Positions 335 through 35,371 of a stretch of 35,472 bases of DNA are shown here, piece by piece; positions within the stretch are counted from its first letter, which is position 1; every line of letters begins with the position of its first letter. The position numbers and the translations under genes were made by a program. The stretch covers positions 2,857,708 through 2,893,179 of the forward strand of contig NZ_CP017675.1 in NCBI RefSeq assembly GCF_001870225.1, read 5' to 3'. This DNA comes from Gloeomargarita lithophora Alchichica-D10 (GTDB taxonomy: Bacteria > Cyanobacteriota > Cyanobacteriia > Gloeomargaritales > Gloeomargaritaceae). A model generated the notes under the pieces. The model was not told where the DNA came from. It saw nothing but the letters and a program-made list of their open reading frames with translations, and searched no databases.

Positions 335-413
335 TAGTCCGGGGGCGATGCCCCTGCGACCGCTGTTCTCATAGCGATAGCGTGGCGTAGCCATATTCAA
401 ATAGGATTGCTAT
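335..413. repeat. Partial dispersed MITE-like repeat (ATAGCAATCCTA end)
   Basis: This remnant holds the conserved core GGGGGCGATGCCCCTGCGACC and ends in TAGGATTGCTAT. The reverse complement of that end, ATAGCAATCCTA, begins the copy at 17201. Relative to the copy near 4001-4047 it carries a 25 bp insertion at 370-394. The opposite end is missing or diverged. The interval 305-439 otherwise shows no gene. Confidence 0.6.
370..394. repeat. Short nested repeat, core GCGTGGCGTAGCCAT
   Basis: This 25 bp unit contains GCGTGGCGTAGCCAT, whose TGGC/GCCA arms form a small hairpin. It interrupts a larger repeat between CTGTTC and the 3' end TAGGATTGCTAT. The related copy near 4021-4047 lacks it, so the two copies look like filled and empty sites. 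Confidence 0.7.
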
Positions 414-3835: not shown

Positions 3836-3929
3836 TCAGTCGTAACGCTTTTCCAACTATAGCAATTTGACCGGATTTAACTACGATTGCGCCCCGATAA
3901 CCCCTGATTCTGAATGGATAGAGTATTGA

Positions 3930-4148
3930 ACACCTCTATTTATTTGAACCAACCAAAAATCCCATCACTGAAATGCAGAAATTCCGCAGAACCAGGTACG
4001 GGGGCGGCGCCCCTGCGACCGCTGTTCAGAATTGAATTAGGATTGCTCTATTTATTTGAACCAACCAAAAATCCCATCACTGAAATGCAGAGATTGCCAA
4101 GAACCAGGGACGGGAGTGGTGCCCCTACAACCTATTTTTAGAGATGCC
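3930..4148. repeat. Two tandem MITE-like repeat copies
   Basis: Copy one spans about 3930-4047 and copy two about 4047-4148. Both open with CTCTATTTATTTGAACCAACC, run through CCCATCACTGAAATGCAG and reach a G-rich core ending CCCCTACAACC or CCCCTGCGACC. Copy one begins like the GGACACCTCTA family but ends GAATTGAATTAGGATTGCT, the end of the ATAGCAATCCTA family, so it is mosaic. Copy two ends CCTATTTTTAGAGATG. Apart from a weak ATAGCAAT sequence at 3859, I see nothing else in the gene-free stretch 3836-4176. Confidence 0.7.
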
Positions 4149-4176
4149 CAAAATAAATAAAAACGTCCCAGTACCC

Positions 4177-11412: not shown

Positions 11413-11544
11413 ATAGTAATCGTAATTGAATTTAGGAGACCTCTAAAAATAGGTTGCAGGGGCACCGCCCCCGTCCCTGGTTCTCGGTAATACCGGTATT
11501 CCAGAGAGATCGCTTTCTGCTAGTTCAAATAAATAGAGGTGCCC
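11413..11544. repeat. MITE-like repeat, reverse orientation
   Basis: Read on the minus strand this opens with CACCTCTATTTATTTGAACT and contains the palindrome AATACCGGTATT. It then has a G-rich core (GGGGGCGGTGCCCCTGCAACC) and ends CCTATTTTTAGAGGTCTCC at 11435. Bases 11413-11434 (ATAGTAATCGTAATTGAATT) resemble the end of the second repeat family, again suggesting a composite. It fills most of the gene-free interval 11317-11606. Confidence 0.7.
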
Positions 11545-11606
11545 TCAAGTTGACTGAGCTAATTGCGACAATTTAATTCCGGTGTTGATCTGCTGTGGAG
11601 TTACAG

Positions 11607-17216: not shown

Positions 17217-17239
17217 GATAGCTTGCGTGGCGTAGCCAT
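17217..17239. repeat. Short nested repeat, core GCGTGGCGTAGCCAT
   Basis: A 23 bp copy, GATAGCTT followed by the core, near the left end of the repeat at 17201-17343. It is nearly identical to the copy at 19949-19971, differing by one base (T to C). Confidence 0.7.
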
Positions 17240-17298: not shown

Positions 17299-17323
17299 CA
17301 TAGCGTTAGCGTGGCGTAGCCAT
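17299..17323. repeat. Short nested repeat, core GCGTGGCGTAGCCAT
   Basis: A 25 bp copy beginning CATAGCGTTA. It is inserted between a GTTC-type sequence and the repeat's right end, the same place as the copy at 370-394. Confidence 0.7.
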
Positions 17324-19921: not shown

Positions 19922-20062
19922 GGACACCTCTATCTATTAGAACCAACCGATAGCCTGCGTGGCGTAGCCATAAATCTCATCGCTGGAATGTAGAGATTCT
20001 GGAGAACCAAGTGCGGGGGGTGCCCCCCTGCGACCGCTAATTTACAATTTATAGAGGTGCCC
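19922..20062. mobile_element. MITE with GGACACCTCTAT ends, carrying a nested short repeat
   Basis: The left end is GGACACCTCTAT, the right end ATAGAGGTGCCC, and TATA flanks both sides. The core has AGAACCAAGTGC then GGGGGGTGCCCCCCTGCGACCG. Within the segment that reads CCAACC-AAAAATCCCATC elsewhere, this copy carries 23 extra bases at 19949-19971. It occupies most of the gene-free stretch 19861-20091. Confidence 0.75.
19949..19971. repeat. Short nested repeat inserted in a MITE
   Basis: GATAGCCT followed by GCGTGGCGTAGCCAT, placed between CCAACC and AAATCTCATC of the host repeat. The copies at 3951 and 4060 read CCAACCAAAAATCCCATC without it. This is the cleanest filled/empty site comparison in the window. 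Confidence 0.75.
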
Positions 20063-25556: not shown

Positions 25557-27238
25557 CAGGAGGGGAGTCCTTTAGTACGCCGTTGCTCCAGCCATTGGCG
25601 TACTATGGGCACCTGGGCAATGTCCCGCAGGACATCGGCAACACAGGCATACCGTTCTTTGCAATGTTGCCGCACCATTTTTTCCAGAACATTGGCTGTG
25701 GCGACACTCACCGCCCCCCCGGTCAGGAGGAGTCGCCAGTCCAATTCCCCCCGCTCCGGGTGTAGTTCAATTTGCTCCAGGGTTTGCCCCGTCAAGGCTT
25801 GCAGGGCGATCATCCCCACGGCGTAAATATCACTGCTAAACACGGGCTGACCCATACATTGTTCAATCGGGGCATAGCCCATCGTCCCCACGGAAACCGT
25901 CTGGTTGCGGGTGATGTGCTCCGGGGTGAGGCTGGCCTCTAAGCATTTCACAATCCCAAAATCAATCAACACCAGTTTACAGTCGCTGGTGCGGCGGATG
26001 ATATTGTCCGGTTTCACATCCCGGTGGATCACCCGGTTGGCGTGGACAAATTCCAAAATTTTGAGAATGCTAATCACCAAATTTAACACCTGGGGTTCGG
26101 GTAACGGTTGCCCGGGGTGGAGTTCCTGGCTGAGACTTTCCCCCTCGATGTATTCCTGCACCAGGTAAAACTGCTCTTCCTGTTCAAAATAGGCCAACAG
26201 GCGGGGAATTTGGTCGTGGGCACCCAATTTTTCCAGGGTTTCGGCTTCCGTGTTAAACAGGCGGCGGGCGGTGGCAGAAATTTCCGCATGGGGGGGCGTG
26301 GGACGCAGTTGTTTGACCACACACAGGGGTTCCCCTGGCCGGTGGGTATCCTGCGCCAGGTAGGTCATGCCAAAGCCCCCCTGTCCCAACAGGCGTACCA
26401 TGCGGTACCGGTGGGCAAGCAGGTTGGGGTCAGACCATTCCACCGGAGTTTGGGTGGCCGCTACCGTCGCCAGTTGGGCTTCAATCCGCGCCAGAGCGAC
26501 GGCAAAATCAATCGGTTTGGTGATGTAGTCGTTCGCCCCCAACCGAAATGCCTCCACCATGTCCTCGCTCTGGCTCCGGGCGGTGGCCATGATCACCGGC
26601 AGTTGCGCCTGGGAATAGGTTTGGCGTAACCGCTCCAGGGTCGCCAGCCCCCCCATCCCCGGCATCATCACATCCAACAGCACCAGGTCGAATTTTGCCT
26701 GGGCAATCCGTTCCAGAGCCGCTTCCCCACTCTCCACCGCCTCCACCCCGTAGCCCTGGCGTAGCAACCGGCGCGACAGCATATCCCGGTTGTCGGCGTT
26801 ATCATCCACGATCAGCAGGCTGGCCTTGGGGGGGGCGGGTGAAGCGGGTTGGGATTCTGGTGGGAGGAGGGGTTCCTTGCCCAGCAGGGCGTGAATTTTC
26901 CCCAGCAACCGCTCCAACTCCACGGGCTTGGTGTCGTAGTCGTCACAACCGGCGGCTAAGGCTTTTTCCCGATCGCCCCCCATCGCATGGGCGGTCAAAG
27001 CAATCACCGGGATATGGCGGGTGGTGGCATTGTCCTTCAAAATGCGGGTGGCCTCCCACCCATCCAGCCCTGGTAGGCTCAAGTCCATCAGGATCAGATG
27101 GGGCAGGTGTTGTTGCGCCATATCCACCCCCATTTGCCCATCCGTGGCGGTGACCACCTGAAACCCCTTGCGTTGCAGGCGGCGCAGGAGCATATCCCGA
27201 TTGAGTTCGTTGTCCTCGACGATCAACAGGGTGTGCAT
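25556..27238 (-). CDS. Ser/Thr protein kinase with two N-terminal receiver domains
   Basis: A 560-residue protein with two REC domains and a Hanks-type kinase. REC1 (about 1-120) has phospho-acceptor Asp52 and Lys104. REC2 (about 139-255) has Asp189 and Lys241. The kinase domain (about 278-545) has the glycine loop GQGGFGMTYLA, Lys309, HRDVKPDN at 405-412 and DFG at 426-428, so all catalytic residues are present. This design lets an aspartyl phosphorelay control Ser/Thr phosphorylation. It starts 3 bases after the stop of the hybrid histidine kinase, its likely phosphodonor, and overlaps the NUDIX start by 1 base. Confidence 0.94.
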   Translation of the reverse strand: MHTLLIVEDNELNRDMLLRRLQRKGFQVVTATDGQMGVDMAQQHLPHLILMDLSLPGLDGWEATRILKDNATTRHIPVIALTAHAMGGDREKALAAGCDDYDTKPVELERLLGKIHALLGKEPLLPPESQPASPAPPKASLLIVDDNADNRDMLSRRLLRQGYGVEAVESGEAALERIAQAKFDLVLLDVMMPGMGGLATLERLRQTYSQAQLPVIMATARSQSEDMVEAFRLGANDYITKPIDFAVALARIEAQLATVAATQTPVEWSDPNLLAHRYRMVRLLGQGGFGMTYLAQDTHRPGEPLCVVKQLRPTPPHAEISATARRLFNTEAETLEKLGAHDQIPRLLAYFEQEEQFYLVQEYIEGESLSQELHPGQPLPEPQVLNLVISILKILEFVHANRVIHRDVKPDNIIRRTSDCKLVLIDFGIVKCLEASLTPEHITRNQTVSVGTMGYAPIEQCMGQPVFSSDIYAVGMIALQALTGQTLEQIELHPERGELDWRLLLTGGAVSVATANVLEKMVRQHCKERYACVADVLRDIAQVPIVRQWLEQRRTKGLPS

Positions 27239-27241
27239 GGG

Positions 27242-29962
27242 TTAGCTCGCCTGACCGGTTTGCAAAGCCTGGAGCAACAATTCCCGCACCGAAGCCAAGA
27301 GCCGCTCCAGGTTAAATTGCCCCTTTTGCCAAATTTGCTGTACTGAGTGTTGCAGGTGTTGCCGTTCCATGAGGGTGAGTTCCTTGGCAGTGATCACAAT
27401 CACCGGAATTTTTTGCCATGCCTCATTCTGGCGCAATTGCTCCACCACCGCAAACCCATCTACCTCTGGCATCATTAGGTCAAGCAGAATCACATCCGGG
27501 GGATTGTCGGCCAGTGCCTCTAAGGCCAACCGCCCATTGGCCGCCGTTTGTACCTGCCAGCCCTGTTTGTGCAGTACCCGCTCCAGCATCTCCCGGGTGT
27601 CCGGGTCATCCTCCACCACCAGCACCCGCTGTCCCTGGGTTTGGTAGCGTTGCAAAATCCCCACCAGGCGCTCCCGGTCAATGGGTTTGGTAAGATAATC
27701 CGTCGCCCCCAGGGCAAACCCCACCTTCTGGTCATCCACCATCGAAAGAATAATCACCGGAATGCTACACAGTTCCGGGTCGGCCTTCAATTCCGCCAAC
27801 ACCGACCAGCCACTCACATCCGGCATCATCACATCCAAGGTAATCGCCTGGGGCCGAATTTCCCGAGCCAAGCTCACCACCCGCGCCCCCTCCGTGGTCA
27901 CCACCACTTCAAAACCTTCCTTGGTCAAAAATCGCTGGAGCAAATCCCCCACCTGGGGGTCATCATCCACCACCAGCACCCGCCGATTGCCGGTTCCCGT
28001 GGGTAAAATCTCCCCCAGGGGCGCGCCTGGGTTCAAAATCGGCAACTGCACCGTGAAGGTCGTCCCTGCCCCCGGCGCACTCTCGACCGTGATTTCGCCC
28101 CCCATCAGGTGACAAAACCGCCGACTGATCGCCAACCCCAACCCCGTGCCCCCATACTTGCGGGTGGTGGAACTGTCCGCCTGGGTAAAGGCTTGGAACA
28201 GCTTATCCATCTGCTCCGGGGTCATGCCAATCCCCGTGTCCCGCACCTGCAACACCAGCCAATCCGCCCCCGTTTGGATTTGCCGCCTGCCGGTCAAAGT
28301 AACCGTGCCCCGTTCCGAAAATTTAGCCGCATTGCTCAGCAAATTTAACAATACCTGGCGCAATTTGGTCATATCCGTGTGGAGGAAGCCCAAATCCGCC
28401 GCCAAATCCAGGCGCAATTGGTTTTGGTTTTTGTGTAACAAAGGCATGGCCGTGGTCACCACCTCCCGCACCAGGTCGGATATGGCGAAGGTTTCCAGGT
28501 ATAAATCCATCCGCCCCGCTTCGATTTTAGAAATATCTAAAATATCGTTAATTAAGGCTAATAAATGCTTGCCCGCCCCCCGAATTTTTTCCAAATCGGG
28601 AATCATTTCCTCTTGGTTGGTATCTTCGGCGGTTTCTTGCAAAATCTCGCTGTAGCCAATGATGGCATTCAACGGGGTACGCAGTTCGTGGCTCATATTG
28701 GCCAAAAATTGACTCTTGGCTTGATTGGCCTGCTCGGCGGCCTCCCGTGCCCGTTGCTGTTCCTCGTGGTAGCGCCGCTCCGTAATATCCCGCAGATTGA
28801 CAATCACCCCCCGCACCACCTGATCCGCCAGCAAATTATTAAAAATTCCCTCCAAATATCGCCCACTTTGATCCTGGTGTTGGACGGCAAATTCCTGGGG
28901 CTTACTCACCCCCGGTTGACCACCCACCTGGGCGAATTGCGCCTGCACCTGGGCTTTTTGGGGTAACGCCACCAGTGACCAGAGGGGCTGTCCCAGCAAT
29001 TGGGCGGGCGGGTAACCCAAAAGACTCGTCACCGAGGGGCTACTATAGCGAATTTTTCCCTCCCCATCCAGGATCAGTACCATATCCGAGGCGTGTTCGA
29101 GCAAAGCCCGAAAATACCGCTCCCGTGCCTGAATTTGCGCCTGCGCCTGTTGCAAGCCCTCATCTCTGGCCACCAATTCCTGAATCATCTGCTCAAAACT
29201 ATGCGCCAACTTTCCCGGTTCGCGCCCTTGGCGGGTCAACCGTTGCAATTCCCCCTGCACCGCCGCCGCCTGCTCCGGGTTAAAGTCTTGCCCCAACCGC
29301 CGCATCACCTGCACCAACCGGCTAATGGGGCGAATCACCGTCTGCCGGAGCAACCAATTCAAAATCAACAAGACCACCGCAAACACCGCCACCAATTTCA
29401 GCATCACCGCCCCCAACAACCCCTGGCTCCGGTCAAACACCTGTTGGGCGGGCAAGTAAATTATTTGTGCCGCCGCCACCTCCCCGGTGACCCGCAAGGG
29501 TTGGGCAGTATAAAATACCTGACCCGTGGGCAAAAATCCCGACAGTTCTTTTAATTCGGGATCGGTGCGAAATTGATTGACCAAACCCGTTTCAAATTCA
29601 TTGGCCTTGTCCTGGGGATTGGTGGGATTGGGGGTAGCTTCCTTATATCTGAAATCCTGATAGGGAGCCTGTTTTTGAAAATACTTAAATACCTCAGTTG
29701 CCCCGTAGTCCGGCACGGTTTGAGGGATAAATTGGGGACTTTTTCCCAATTGGTCTTTGAATAGGGGATTGATCTGTTCACTGGTGTAGGTTCGCACCCC
29801 GTTCATCATGGCAATTAGGGTTTGGGCTTGGCTGGCAATTTCCGTTTCGGCCTGCTGTTGTATCTGCGTGGAAAGCCCCACCCCCGCAATCACAATCCCA
29901 GTCACAAACACGAGGGTCAAAATGGCACTAAACAGGCCGCTAAGTTTAACAAATAACCACAT
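27242..29962 (-). CDS. Hybrid sensor histidine kinase (DUF3365-PAS-HisKA-HATPase-REC-REC)
   Basis: From ATG 29962 (MWLFVKLSGLFSAIL) the protein has 906 residues. It has a first membrane span at about 2-28, an extracytoplasmic DUF3365/Tll0287-like sensor at about 35-180, a second span at about 184-206 and a HAMP-like linker. A PAS domain lies at about 280-395, HisKA has phospho-His425 in MSHELRTP, and the ATPase domain keeps N, G1 and G2 boxes (NLLSNAAKF, DTGIGM, GTGLGLAI). Two receivers carry LDVMMPDVSG and LLDLMMPEVDG. The sensor has no cysteine, so no CxxCH haem site. An in-frame GTG at 30001 lies inside the adjoining MITE and is less likely the start. Confidence 0.93.
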   Translation of the reverse strand: MWLFVKLSGLFSAILTLVFVTGIVIAGVGLSTQIQQQAETEIASQAQTLIAMMNGVRTYTSEQINPLFKDQLGKSPQFIPQTVPDYGATEVFKYFQKQAPYQDFRYKEATPNPTNPQDKANEFETGLVNQFRTDPELKELSGFLPTGQVFYTAQPLRVTGEVAAAQIIYLPAQQVFDRSQGLLGAVMLKLVAVFAVVLLILNWLLRQTVIRPISRLVQVMRRLGQDFNPEQAAAVQGELQRLTRQGREPGKLAHSFEQMIQELVARDEGLQQAQAQIQARERYFRALLEHASDMVLILDGEGKIRYSSPSVTSLLGYPPAQLLGQPLWSLVALPQKAQVQAQFAQVGGQPGVSKPQEFAVQHQDQSGRYLEGIFNNLLADQVVRGVIVNLRDITERRYHEEQQRAREAAEQANQAKSQFLANMSHELRTPLNAIIGYSEILQETAEDTNQEEMIPDLEKIRGAGKHLLALINDILDISKIEAGRMDLYLETFAISDLVREVVTTAMPLLHKNQNQLRLDLAADLGFLHTDMTKLRQVLLNLLSNAAKFSERGTVTLTGRRQIQTGADWLVLQVRDTGIGMTPEQMDKLFQAFTQADSSTTRKYGGTGLGLAISRRFCHLMGGEITVESAPGAGTTFTVQLPILNPGAPLGEILPTGTGNRRVLVVDDDPQVGDLLQRFLTKEGFEVVVTTEGARVVSLAREIRPQAITLDVMMPDVSGWSVLAELKADPELCSIPVIILSMVDDQKVGFALGATDYLTKPIDRERLVGILQRYQTQGQRVLVVEDDPDTREMLERVLHKQGWQVQTAANGRLALEALADNPPDVILLDLMMPEVDGFAVVEQLRQNEAWQKIPVIVITAKELTLMERQHLQHSVQQIWQKGQFNLERLLASVRELLLQALQTGQAS

Positions 29963-29989: not shown

Positions 29990-29995
29990 ACTATA
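29990..29995 (-). promoter_or_regulatory. Candidate -10 box at a MITE junction
   Basis: On the minus strand TATAGT sits exactly at the join between the MITE end (GAGGTGTCC) and host DNA, 27 bases before the hybrid kinase ATG. It is one base from the TATAAT consensus. No clear -35 box is seen within the MITE. NtcA-like or other operator sequences were not found. Confidence 0.3.
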
Positions 29996-30102
29996 GGACA
30001 CCTCTATTTATTTACACCACCAGAAAGTCATCTCGCTGGAATGCCGGTATTACCGAGAACCAGGTGCGGGGGTGCCCCGGCGACCTATTTTTAGAAGTGT
30101 CC
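29996..30102. mobile_element. MITE with GGACACCTCTA ends between GST and hybrid kinase genes
   Basis: The left end is GGACACCTCTATTTATTTAC, the right end CCTATTTTTAGAAGTGTCC, flanked by TATA on one side and GATA on the other. Inside are CATCTCGCTGGAATGCCGGTATTACC, the palindromic CCGG region and a G-rich core. It is about 107 bp, shorter than the copy at 19922 by the nested repeat and some core sequence. Confidence 0.75.
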
Positions 30103-30132
30103 GATAGTCGGAACGCCTGGATTTTTCCTACC

Positions 30133-33183: not shown

Positions 33184-34548
33184 ATGCTTTCGGATGCGCC
33201 CAAACGTCCTCGAAATTCGGAATTAAGTTTTTCTCCTCACCAATTACCCCCGCAAAATGTAGCGGCGGAGGAGGCGATTTTGGGGGGGATTTTGCTTGAC
33301 CCGGAGGCTCTCGGTCGGATTAGTCATTTGCTCAAACCGGAATTTTTTTATATCCAATCCCACCAGGATATTTACCGGGCGGCCTTGAGTTTGCAAATGC
33401 AGGGAAAACCCACGGATATGACCGCCGTAGCTACTTGGTTGCAGGATCAGGGGCTATTGGAAAAAGTGGGCGGGCCGGCCAAATTGGTGCAGTTGGTGGA
33501 ACAGGTGGTCAGTGCGGTCAACATTGACCAGTATGCGGCTCTGGTGGCGGATAAATACCTGCGGCGGCAATTGATTCAAGCGGGGCAGGACATTCTCCGG
33601 TTGGGCTACGAAACCACTTTATCTATGGAGCAGGTGCTGGATCAGGCGGAACAGCATATTTTCGCCATTTGTCAAAGCCAGCCCCGTCAGGAACTGGTGT
33701 CCACCGCTGAAATGGTCAGCAGTATTTGGCAAGAAATCGAACAACGCTCCGAGGATATGTTGCCGCCGGGGATTACCAGTGGTTTTTACGACCTGGATGC
33801 CCTCACCCAGGGGTTTCAGCGTTCAGATTTGATCATTGTGGCCGGTCGCCCCTCGATGGGGAAAACCTCTTTTTGCTTGAATATCGCCCGCAACATCGCC
33901 GCCACCCACCGCTTGCCCACCGCCTTATTTAGCCTGGAAATGTCCAAGGAACAACTGGTGTACCGGCTGTTGTCCAGCGAAGCCCGCATTGAAAGTACCC
34001 GCCTCCGCACTGGCCGCATCGCCGAGCAGGAATGGCCGAACCTGAACCAAGCGATTAGCAACCTGGCGCAATTGCCGATTTTTATTGACGATTCCGCCAG
34101 TGCCACGATGATGGAAATCCGCTCCAAAAGCCGCCGGTTAAAGTCAGAACAGGGCAGTCTGGGCTTGGTTTTGGTGGATTACCTGCAACTGATGGACAGT
34201 GGCACCAACAGCGATAACCGGGTGCTGGAATTGTCCCGCATGACCCGGGGCTTGAAAACCCTGGCGCGGGAATTGCAAGTGCCGGTGATTGTCCTGTCCC
34301 AGTTGAGCCGGGGGGTGGAACATCGCACCAACAAACGCCCCATGCTCTCGGATTTGCGCGAGAGTGGCAGTATTGAACAAGATGCGGACGTTGTGATTAT
34401 GTTGTACCGAGATGAGTATTACAATCCCGATACGCCAGAGCGGGGGGTTTCGGAGGTGATTATCGCCAAACACCGCAATGGCCCGACGGGGGTAGCCAAA
34501 ATGTTGTTTGATGCCAGTTTTACCCAGTTCCGCAATATGAAACATTAG
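33184..34548 (+). CDS. dnaB: Replicative DNA helicase
   Basis: DnaB is the hexameric helicase at the replication fork. From ATG 33184 (MLSDAPKRPRNSELS) it has 454 residues; ATG 33160 would add eight. TACAAT at 33156-33161 looks like a -10 box overlapping that upstream ATG, which favours the later start. The N-terminal domain (LPPQNVAAEEAILGGILLDPEA) is followed by the RecA-like domain with Walker A GRPSMGKT at 221-228 and Walker B LVLVDYLQL. Near the end is HRNGPTGVAKMLFD. No intein interrupts it. The TAG stop uses the first G of a MITE. Confidence 0.97.
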   Translation: MLSDAPKRPRNSELSFSPHQLPPQNVAAEEAILGGILLDPEALGRISHLLKPEFFYIQSHQDIYRAALSLQMQGKPTDMTAVATWLQDQGLLEKVGGPAKLVQLVEQVVSAVNIDQYAALVADKYLRRQLIQAGQDILRLGYETTLSMEQVLDQAEQHIFAICQSQPRQELVSTAEMVSSIWQEIEQRSEDMLPPGITSGFYDLDALTQGFQRSDLIIVAGRPSMGKTSFCLNIARNIAATHRLPTALFSLEMSKEQLVYRLLSSEARIESTRLRTGRIAEQEWPNLNQAISNLAQLPIFIDDSASATMMEIRSKSRRLKSEQGSLGLVLVDYLQLMDSGTNSDNRVLELSRMTRGLKTLARELQVPVIVLSQLSRGVEHRTNKRPMLSDLRESGSIEQDADVVIMLYRDEYYNPDTPERGVSEVIIAKHRNGPTGVAKMLFDASFTQFRNMKH

Positions 34549-34657
34549 GACATCTTTATTTATTTGAACCAGCAGAAAGTTATCTCGCTGGAATACCGGT
34601 ATTACCTAGAACCAATTACGGGGGCGGTGCCCCTGCGACCTATTTTTAGAGGTGTCC
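34548..34657. mobile_element. MITE with GGACATC/GGTGTCC ends at the dnaB stop
   Basis: The left end is GGACATCTTTATTTATTTGA, the right end CCTATTTTTAGAGGTGTCC, and ATTA flanks both sides. Inside are the palindrome AATACCGGTATT and the G-rich core GGGGGCGGTGCCCCTGCGACC. Its first G completes the dnaB TAG codon. It is the most intact 110 bp form of the family in this window. Confidence 0.8.
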
Positions 34658-34753: not shown

Positions 34754-35371
34754 TCAAGCCCCCATATAATTCATCGCCCAGCGTGCCAATTCGGTGCGGT
34801 TGCCGAGGCCAATTTTATTGAGCATATTGCTGACATGGCTTTCCACCGTGCGCCGGGACACGTTCAGTTCATCCGCCACCTGTTGATTGGTCAATCCCTG
34901 CGCCACCAACCGCAAAACTCGCCGCTCGGTGGGGGTGAGATAGGTGTCTGGGGGGAACTGGGCTGGCGATTCCCCTTGGGTCGCCCAACCCAACCGCGCC
35001 AGGGACGAACGGATTTGGGCCAGCAATTCTTCCGGCTCAAAAGGTTTGACCAAATACACATCCCCCCCGGCGTTCAACCCCACAATCCGGTCGCCCACAT
35101 CCCCCTTGGCGGAGAGAAAAATGAGAGGCACGGAGCGCAAACGGGGATTTTGGCGCAGTTTTTGGACAAACTCAAACCCATCCATCAGCGGCATCATCAC
35201 ATCACAGACCACCAGGCTGGGATGCACTTCGCTCAACAAATTCCAGCCTTCTTGCCCGTTGGCCGCCGTTACAACCCGGTAGCCACCCTCCAACTCCAGA
35301 TACTCCTTGGTGAGGAACCGCAATTGGCTGTCGTCATCAATCAGAATAATAGTGGGTGCTTCAGCAGTCAT
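34754..35371 (-). CDS. NarL/LuxR-type response regulator
   Basis: A 205-residue two-domain regulator from ATG 35371 (MTAEAPTIILIDDD); an in-frame start at 35395 would add eight residues. The receiver (about 5-125) has the acidic pocket DDD, phospho-acceptor Asp57 (VVCDVMMPLMDG) and Lys107 in YLVKPFEPEE. The LuxR HTH (about 145-200) is LTPTERRVLRLVAQGLTNQQVADELNVSRRTVESHVSNMLNKIG. The layout resembles the cyanobacterial/plastid Ycf29 type. No partner kinase is adjacent; the hybrid kinase at 27242-29962 lies in a different operon. Confidence 0.93.
   Translation of the reverse strand: MTAEAPTIILIDDDSQLRFLTKEYLELEGGYRVVTAANGQEGWNLLSEVHPSLVVCDVMMPLMDGFEFVQKLRQNPRLRSVPLIFLSAKGDVGDRIVGLNAGGDVYLVKPFEPEELLAQIRSSLARLGWATQGESPAQFPPDTYLTPTERRVLRLVAQGLTNQQVADELNVSRRTVESHVSNMLNKIGLGNRTELARWAMNYMGA

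Follow-up and report, generated by a model that had tools for sequence, protein, structure and literature searches.

A copy of a many-copy mobile repeat (MITE-1) in the genome of Gloeomargarita lithophora Alchichica-D10 holds a very short unit that other copies of the same repeat read straight through, which raises the questions of whether this unit was gained or lost, what kind of element it is, and what moved it. The whole stretch of DNA analysed, 35,472 nt long, is referred to here as the window. Our reading, to which we give a probability of about 0.85, covering the insertion and the identity of the element, not the enzyme, is that the feature at 19951-19971 is an inserted mobile element of very small size, belonging to the small dispersed repeats (SDRs). 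To our knowledge, the mechanism by which the 20-nt repeats of cyanobacteria move has been open since 2008.

Table 1. Coordinates of the SDR units, their hosts and the empty sites in the window.
Feature	Position	Strand	Basis
Host MITE-1, 141 bp, TA-flanked; TIRs GGACACCTCTAT / ATAGAGGTGCCC (11/12 matching)	19922..20062	+	
MITE-1 left TIR, GGACACCTCTAT	19922..19933	+	sequence
MITE-1 right TIR, ATAGAGGTGCCC on +	20051..20062	-	sequence
Target dinucleotide GA, host sequence directly 5' of the insert	19949..19950	+	empty copies CCAACCGA^AAATC
Inserted SDR unit, TAGCCTGCGTGGCGTAGCCAT (21 nt)	19951..19971	+	filled/empty comparison
3' hairpin of the SDR, GTGGC-GTA-GCCAT	19959..19971	+	
Empty junction in a MITE-1 copy (GAACCAACCAA^AAATCCC)	3956..3957	+	
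Empty junction in the adjacent MITE-1 copy	4068..4069	+	
SDR TAGCGATAGCGTGGCGTAGCCAT (23 nt), right arm of a MITE-2 (site C: GTTCTCA^ATTCAAATAGGATTGCTATA)	372..394	+	
SDR TAGCTTGCGTGGCGTAGCCAT, after the left arm of a MITE-2 (ATAGCAATCCTATCTGA^)	17219..17239	+	
SDR TAGCGTTAGCGTGGCGTAGCCAT, right arm of the MITE-2 that also carries the SDR at 17219..17239	17301..17323	+	
MITE-2 left arm as empty target, CACCCGATTGGCGAAC			

The Inserted Unit and Its Copies

The two copies of MITE-1 cited as empty in a preliminary description of this locus (at 3951 and 4060) are indeed so, both reading GAACCAACCAAAAATCCCATC across their junctions. That description had given the unit as 23 bp; the insertion itself stands and the size does not, because an empty copy reads CCGGAACCAACCGAAAATCTTATC, so that the leading GA belongs to the host and the insert is 21 nt long, placed at CCGA^AAATC with neither duplication nor loss. 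With exact empty partners at hand, the insertion of a unit this short and devoid of TIRs is strongly supported. MITE-1 gives 59 genomic alignments at E<=0.01, and its further copies in the window lie at 3924-4150 (two, head to tail), 11428-11551 (reverse strand), 29990-30109 and 34541-34657. The window also contains repeated coding-like segments, possibly receiver domains, that matched as diverged direct repeats (26645-28000 and 35148-35284).

The core of the unit, GCGTGGCGTAGCCAT (19957-19971), has four exact matches in the window versus 0.07 expected by chance, and the genome-wide collection of copies that had been proposed returned 99 exact copies, 54 forward and 45 reverse, from the single contig of 3,049,282 bp, while the reversed-pattern control returned none; the flanks of these copies were compared, filled/empty pairs counted and target duplications sought. 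A chance origin of the copies is ruled out by the counts for the window, the genome and the 21-mer (see below), each set against expectation or reversed controls. The units range from 17 to 29 nt and are mostly of 21 nt (21-23 nt being usual), and those at filled/empty pairs have fixed ends in common, TAGC...CAT.

Filled and Empty Sites in MITEs and in the SDR Itself

Filled and empty copies were compared by script, and all counts of this section cover the retrieved surroundings of SDR and MITE copies only; cluster counts from an automatic context clustering, which had merged different hosts, were excluded. At the site of the window finding (site A, MITE-1), GAACCAACCGA[TAGCCTGCGTGGCGTAGCCAT]AAATCTCATC stands against GAACCAACCGA^AAATCTTATC, with 8 single-filled and 10 empty copies among the retrieved loci, and the double-filled copies carry TAGCCTGCGTGTCCGCAGGACAT as their second unit. 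Another host is MITE-2, with ends TATAGCAATCC, whose retrieved loci are filled in the left arm (site B, CACCCGA[TAGCCTGCGTGGCGTAGCCAT]TTGGCGAACAG versus CACCCGA^TTGGCGAACAG, 15 filled and 17 empty), ten bases further in by a unit with a CC/GG stem (site B', 11 filled and 6 empty), and in the right arm (site C, GTTCTCA[TAGCGTTAGCGTGGCGTAGCCAT]A versus GTTCTAA^A, 14 filled by a single unit and 22 empty, with further filled copies holding two units). The proposed check of orientation was also run and finds the SDR in both orientations relative to one host, as MITE-1 carries it reversed at site D (2 filled and 30 empty among the retrieved loci). A third repeat family provides one more filled/empty site (site E). 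A search for a parent IS of these MITEs beside IS630-like genes found none.

The SDR also serves as its own host. At site G one unit is nested in another, TTGCGTGGCGA[TAGCGCAACGTGTCCGCAGGACAT]AGCCAT versus TTGCGTGGCGA^AGCCAT, and a 46-mer double unit resolves into the 29-mer TAGCGTTAGCGA^TAGCGTGGCGTAGCCAT with the 17-mer TAGCGTGCCGTAGGCAT inserted at GCGA^. Double units are accounted for by renewed use of a GA target.

Insertions in a CRISPR Array, Transposase and tnpB Genes

One example of a very different host is a CRISPR array (site F) in the window genome, with 37-nt repeats, adjoining a type I-C-like cas locus (L281, 294-3296; G000:C1:1396193-1399195), in which cas1 and cas2 were recognised from their translations and the remaining cas genes were named from reading the proteins. 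Two of its repeats are 59 nt long and each contains an SDR (CACTCCCA[TAGYGAAGCGTGGCAAAGCCAT]AGAATG), while some 36 others read CACTCCTA^AGAATG. The polarity here is that of a gain, because a length of 37 nt is typical of the array and one of 59 nt exceptional. The filled repeats share a C, which points to a single insertion that was then copied locally. Both lie at the end of the array far from cas2, that is, leader-distal; an argument for polarity from CRISPR chronology was dropped, leader-distal order alone giving no date for the insertion.

Other examples come from the genus-mates G004 and G002, with 28 and 55 copies of the core, respectively, whose units again run from TAGC to CAT and follow GA or CA; empty partners were found with a joined-flank query, and genes were named by reading translations. 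In an IS630-like transposase gene (empty partner GCGGTTTA^TGGTAAC), a 22-nt insert shortens the open frame. A tnpB gene is matched by the empty partner GGCTTCTGA^AACATC, and in a second tnpB-like gene (L327), for which no empty partner was found, removal of the insert lengthens the reading frame. One IS has two sites that are filled in G002 (L309/L376), while its roughly 20 copies in G004 (L377, for example), nearly identical to one another, are all without an SDR. Its copies in G002 contain one or two SDRs. Empty partners are also present for the sites in L321, L316 (where the right side has diverged), L334 and L310/L303. An IS630-like element with the same SDR in its transposase gene (L326, 1388-1409) apparently has about ten copies in G002, and these imply that the broken form was amplified, presumably in trans.

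The Rule of Insertion

Overall, filled/empty pairs were found for about 18 separate positions, spread over three genus-mates and Nostocales. The SDR enters in one orientation and is almost always joined directly to a preceding A, usually that of GA or CA, in the window genome (G000), G002, G004 and Nostocales, and the nearest empty copy has A at -1 at 17 of the approximately 18 positions, the exception being site D, where the host bases vary. In the sampled Nostocales loci, some of whose units have close empty partners, 33 of 40 units follow GA, the others following CA (3), TA (2) and TG (2). Units with a CC/GG stem have T where the empty copy has the A at -1, both at site B' (GATTTGCGT[TAGCCTGCGTGCCGTAGGCAT]ACAG) and at an IS site (L309, 2104). 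Target duplications were sought at every junction, and apart from site B, where the junction can be shifted by 1 nt, none was found; nor was there any net loss of target. The earlier suggestion that the mechanism is not DDE transposition fits a unit that has no TIRs and makes no multi-base target duplication.

The 3' part of the SDR folds as GTGGC-GTA-GCCAT, and in other copies the stem is exchanged with compensation: a loose scan that yielded 147 hairpins (32 in the reversed control) has GC/GC stems in 95, CC/GG in 22 and TCC/GGA in 5. The minimum free energy of the main form is no better than that of shuffles (z -0.16), and the CC/GG and TCC/GGA forms have a remarkable minimum free energy that comes from a different, longer pairing. 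The evidence from stem compensation is moderate: independent changes are scarce, and matched stems can also arise when a hairpin is repaired by template switching.

What Moved the Unit

We propose that a structured single strand containing the hairpin would be joined in trans to the 3'-A of the target by an enzyme, and in the version that we prefer the strand would be DNA, handled by a Y1/HUH-type transposase of the IS200/IS605 or RAYT class. Transposases of these classes insert without target duplication. This version, with its single-stranded hairpin DNA and its Y1/HUH enzyme acting in trans, we hold at somewhat under even odds. A Y1 (HUH) transposase is present in all 16 of the SDR carriers tested, with Y1 nearly ubiquitous, and is missing only from SDR-free genomes, the genus-mates or relatives G001, G003, G006 and G008; it is also present in nine other SDR-free genomes, and in one carrier of 12 SDR copies (G085) the Y1 match is weak and RAYT-like. 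This distribution is weakly consistent with a Y1 role, confounded as it is by kinship and genome size. The only Y1 transposase gene of the window genome lies upstream of a tnpB-like reading frame (L274, approximately 1463-2700), and inspection saw no SDR-like ends beside this TnpA gene. Another or an unknown route is rather unlikely.

As to reverse transcription, the preliminary description had offered the retro-insertion of a small RNA, a route of the RT type that Elhai and colleagues are said to have favoured. A small structured RNA inserted by a reverse transcriptase (of a group II intron, retron or similar) fits the duplication-free, orientation-specific insertion and the compensated hairpin, and most Nostocales carriers have many RVT_1 genes. 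However, no RVT_1 domain is detectable in the window genome, a single contig with 99 copies and the richest of all, nor in G005, G091 and G098 with one or two copies each, and the window has no match to an Rfam family. As the richest genome is without an RVT_1 match, retro-insertion is disfavoured here and the proposal finds no support in this genome, although a reverse transcriptase since lost may have acted earlier; we consider this route unlikely.

The other suggestion made at the outset, template switching, fares less well. Polymerase template switching, or the capture of hairpin DNA during repair, has in its favour that template switching is readily provoked by hairpins and very short inserts, and that the T found in place of A beside the CC/GG units could have been copied from the source. 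However, repair capture as a rule produces ends that vary and deletions of small size, while here the ends are constant and the net loss is zero, and the dispersal is chromosome-wide, not local. The simple form of the process fails to explain dispersed, precisely ended, zero-loss insertions, and we regard this class of explanation as distinctly unlikely.

That SDRs spread only passively, from a few ancient accidental entries, with all copies as passengers of MITEs and ISs, is improbable. Most genomic copies are in fact passengers multiplied by MITEs and ISs, as in the MITE at 19922-20062, many sitting at a handful of identical MITE positions, and IS copies with the same SDR have been amplified in G002. 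However, about 18 independent positions with identical ends, an orientation rule and A at -1 require a recurrent specific process, and the single-copy and nested sites mostly contradict purely passive spread. As to loss, with the SDR original to its hosts and the empty copies as precise deletions, any single MITE site is symmetric between it and gain, but we find it hardly credible, given the same 21-mer in unrelated hosts and in both orientations within one host, the exceptional length of the filled CRISPR repeats, the longer reading frames restored by removal of the insert from transposase and tnpB genes, and the interruption of one SDR by another. A core confined to these host repeats, with deletion scars in hosts lacking it, had been named as the sign of loss; it was looked for, and the copies and junctions described above differ from it on both counts. 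By sequence comparison, the SDR units moved by insertion, and the empty sites do not reflect loss.

Distribution and Significance

The 21-mer TAGCNTGCGTGGCGTAGCCAT is present in 15 of 290 cyanobacterial genomes (control 0), these being the window genome, two genus-mates, members of family f32 (Nostocaceae-like by named matches), and two others with single copies; it is absent from viral contigs. The many 15-mer matches outside cyanobacteria were set aside, being expected by chance in so large a collection. That Nostocales and Gloeomargarita-type genomes have the 21-mer in identical form points either to its horizontal spread or to a conserved machine that constrains it strongly. Insertions in CRISPR repeats and transposase genes mean that function can be affected, and the multi-copy ISs, of which both filled and empty alleles exist, are possible targets for an assay. 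The mechanism is further constrained by the exact ends, the GA/CA target, the lack of multi-base duplication, and an SDR-rich genome with no detectable RT. A bolder view, which we put forward tentatively and on balance doubt, is that the SDR is among the smallest mobile units of DNA, a 21-nt single-strand hairpin inserted by a dedicated, trans-acting, non-RT enzyme; the hairpin would be conserved to the letter between Gloeomargaritales and Nostocales, and both CRISPR repeats and transposase genes would be open to it.

Comparison with Known Systems

The element is assigned to the SDRs by description. Elhai's 2008 study of Nostoc punctiforme and relatives reportedly described SDRs of 21-27 nt with compensatory structure, minitransposon hosts and nested copies, and is said to have suggested RNA intermediates and a restriction of SDRs to a coherent subgroup of cyanobacteria. 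The present element agrees in size, many dispersed copies, compensated hairpin, precise insertion, minitransposon hosts, nesting, presence in cyanobacteria and a 21-mer that extends into Nostocales. The sequence of the unit was sought in the published text available for searching, and no text containing it was found. According to one report, SDR5 enters HIP1 between its third and fourth bases (PMC4390886); in contrast, the target here is (G/C)A^, and the lineage is Gloeomargaritales, in a genome without RVT_1.

Small palindromic dispersed repeats are also known as REPs and REPINs, which are associated with RAYT transposases and, in the view of two papers, would be mobilised in trans in single-stranded form (PMC3116915; PMC3733652); the latter places Elhai's repeats from cyanobacteria among REP-like sequences that lack a tag. 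The SDR shares their small size, palindromy and dispersal but differs in having no inverted doublet, its units being single or tandem; a GTAG or CGTC tag is absent from the foot of its hairpin, which reads GC-GTGGC...GCCAT with GTA in the loop. Non-autonomous derivatives of IS200/IS605 are alike in their duplication-free, oriented insertion beside a short target (for the SDR GA/CA^, only 1-2 nt) and in requiring a hairpin, as in the model preferred here, and differ in having two end hairpins and far greater length. MITEs, likewise non-coding, dispersed and of high copy number, are the hosts of the SDR, with TIRs and TA flanks; compared with these and other DDE-type elements, the SDR has no TIRs, duplicates no target sequence and is shorter by several-fold. 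What is new here is the SDR in a Gloeomargaritales host lineage, together with the constraints that it places on the mechanism.
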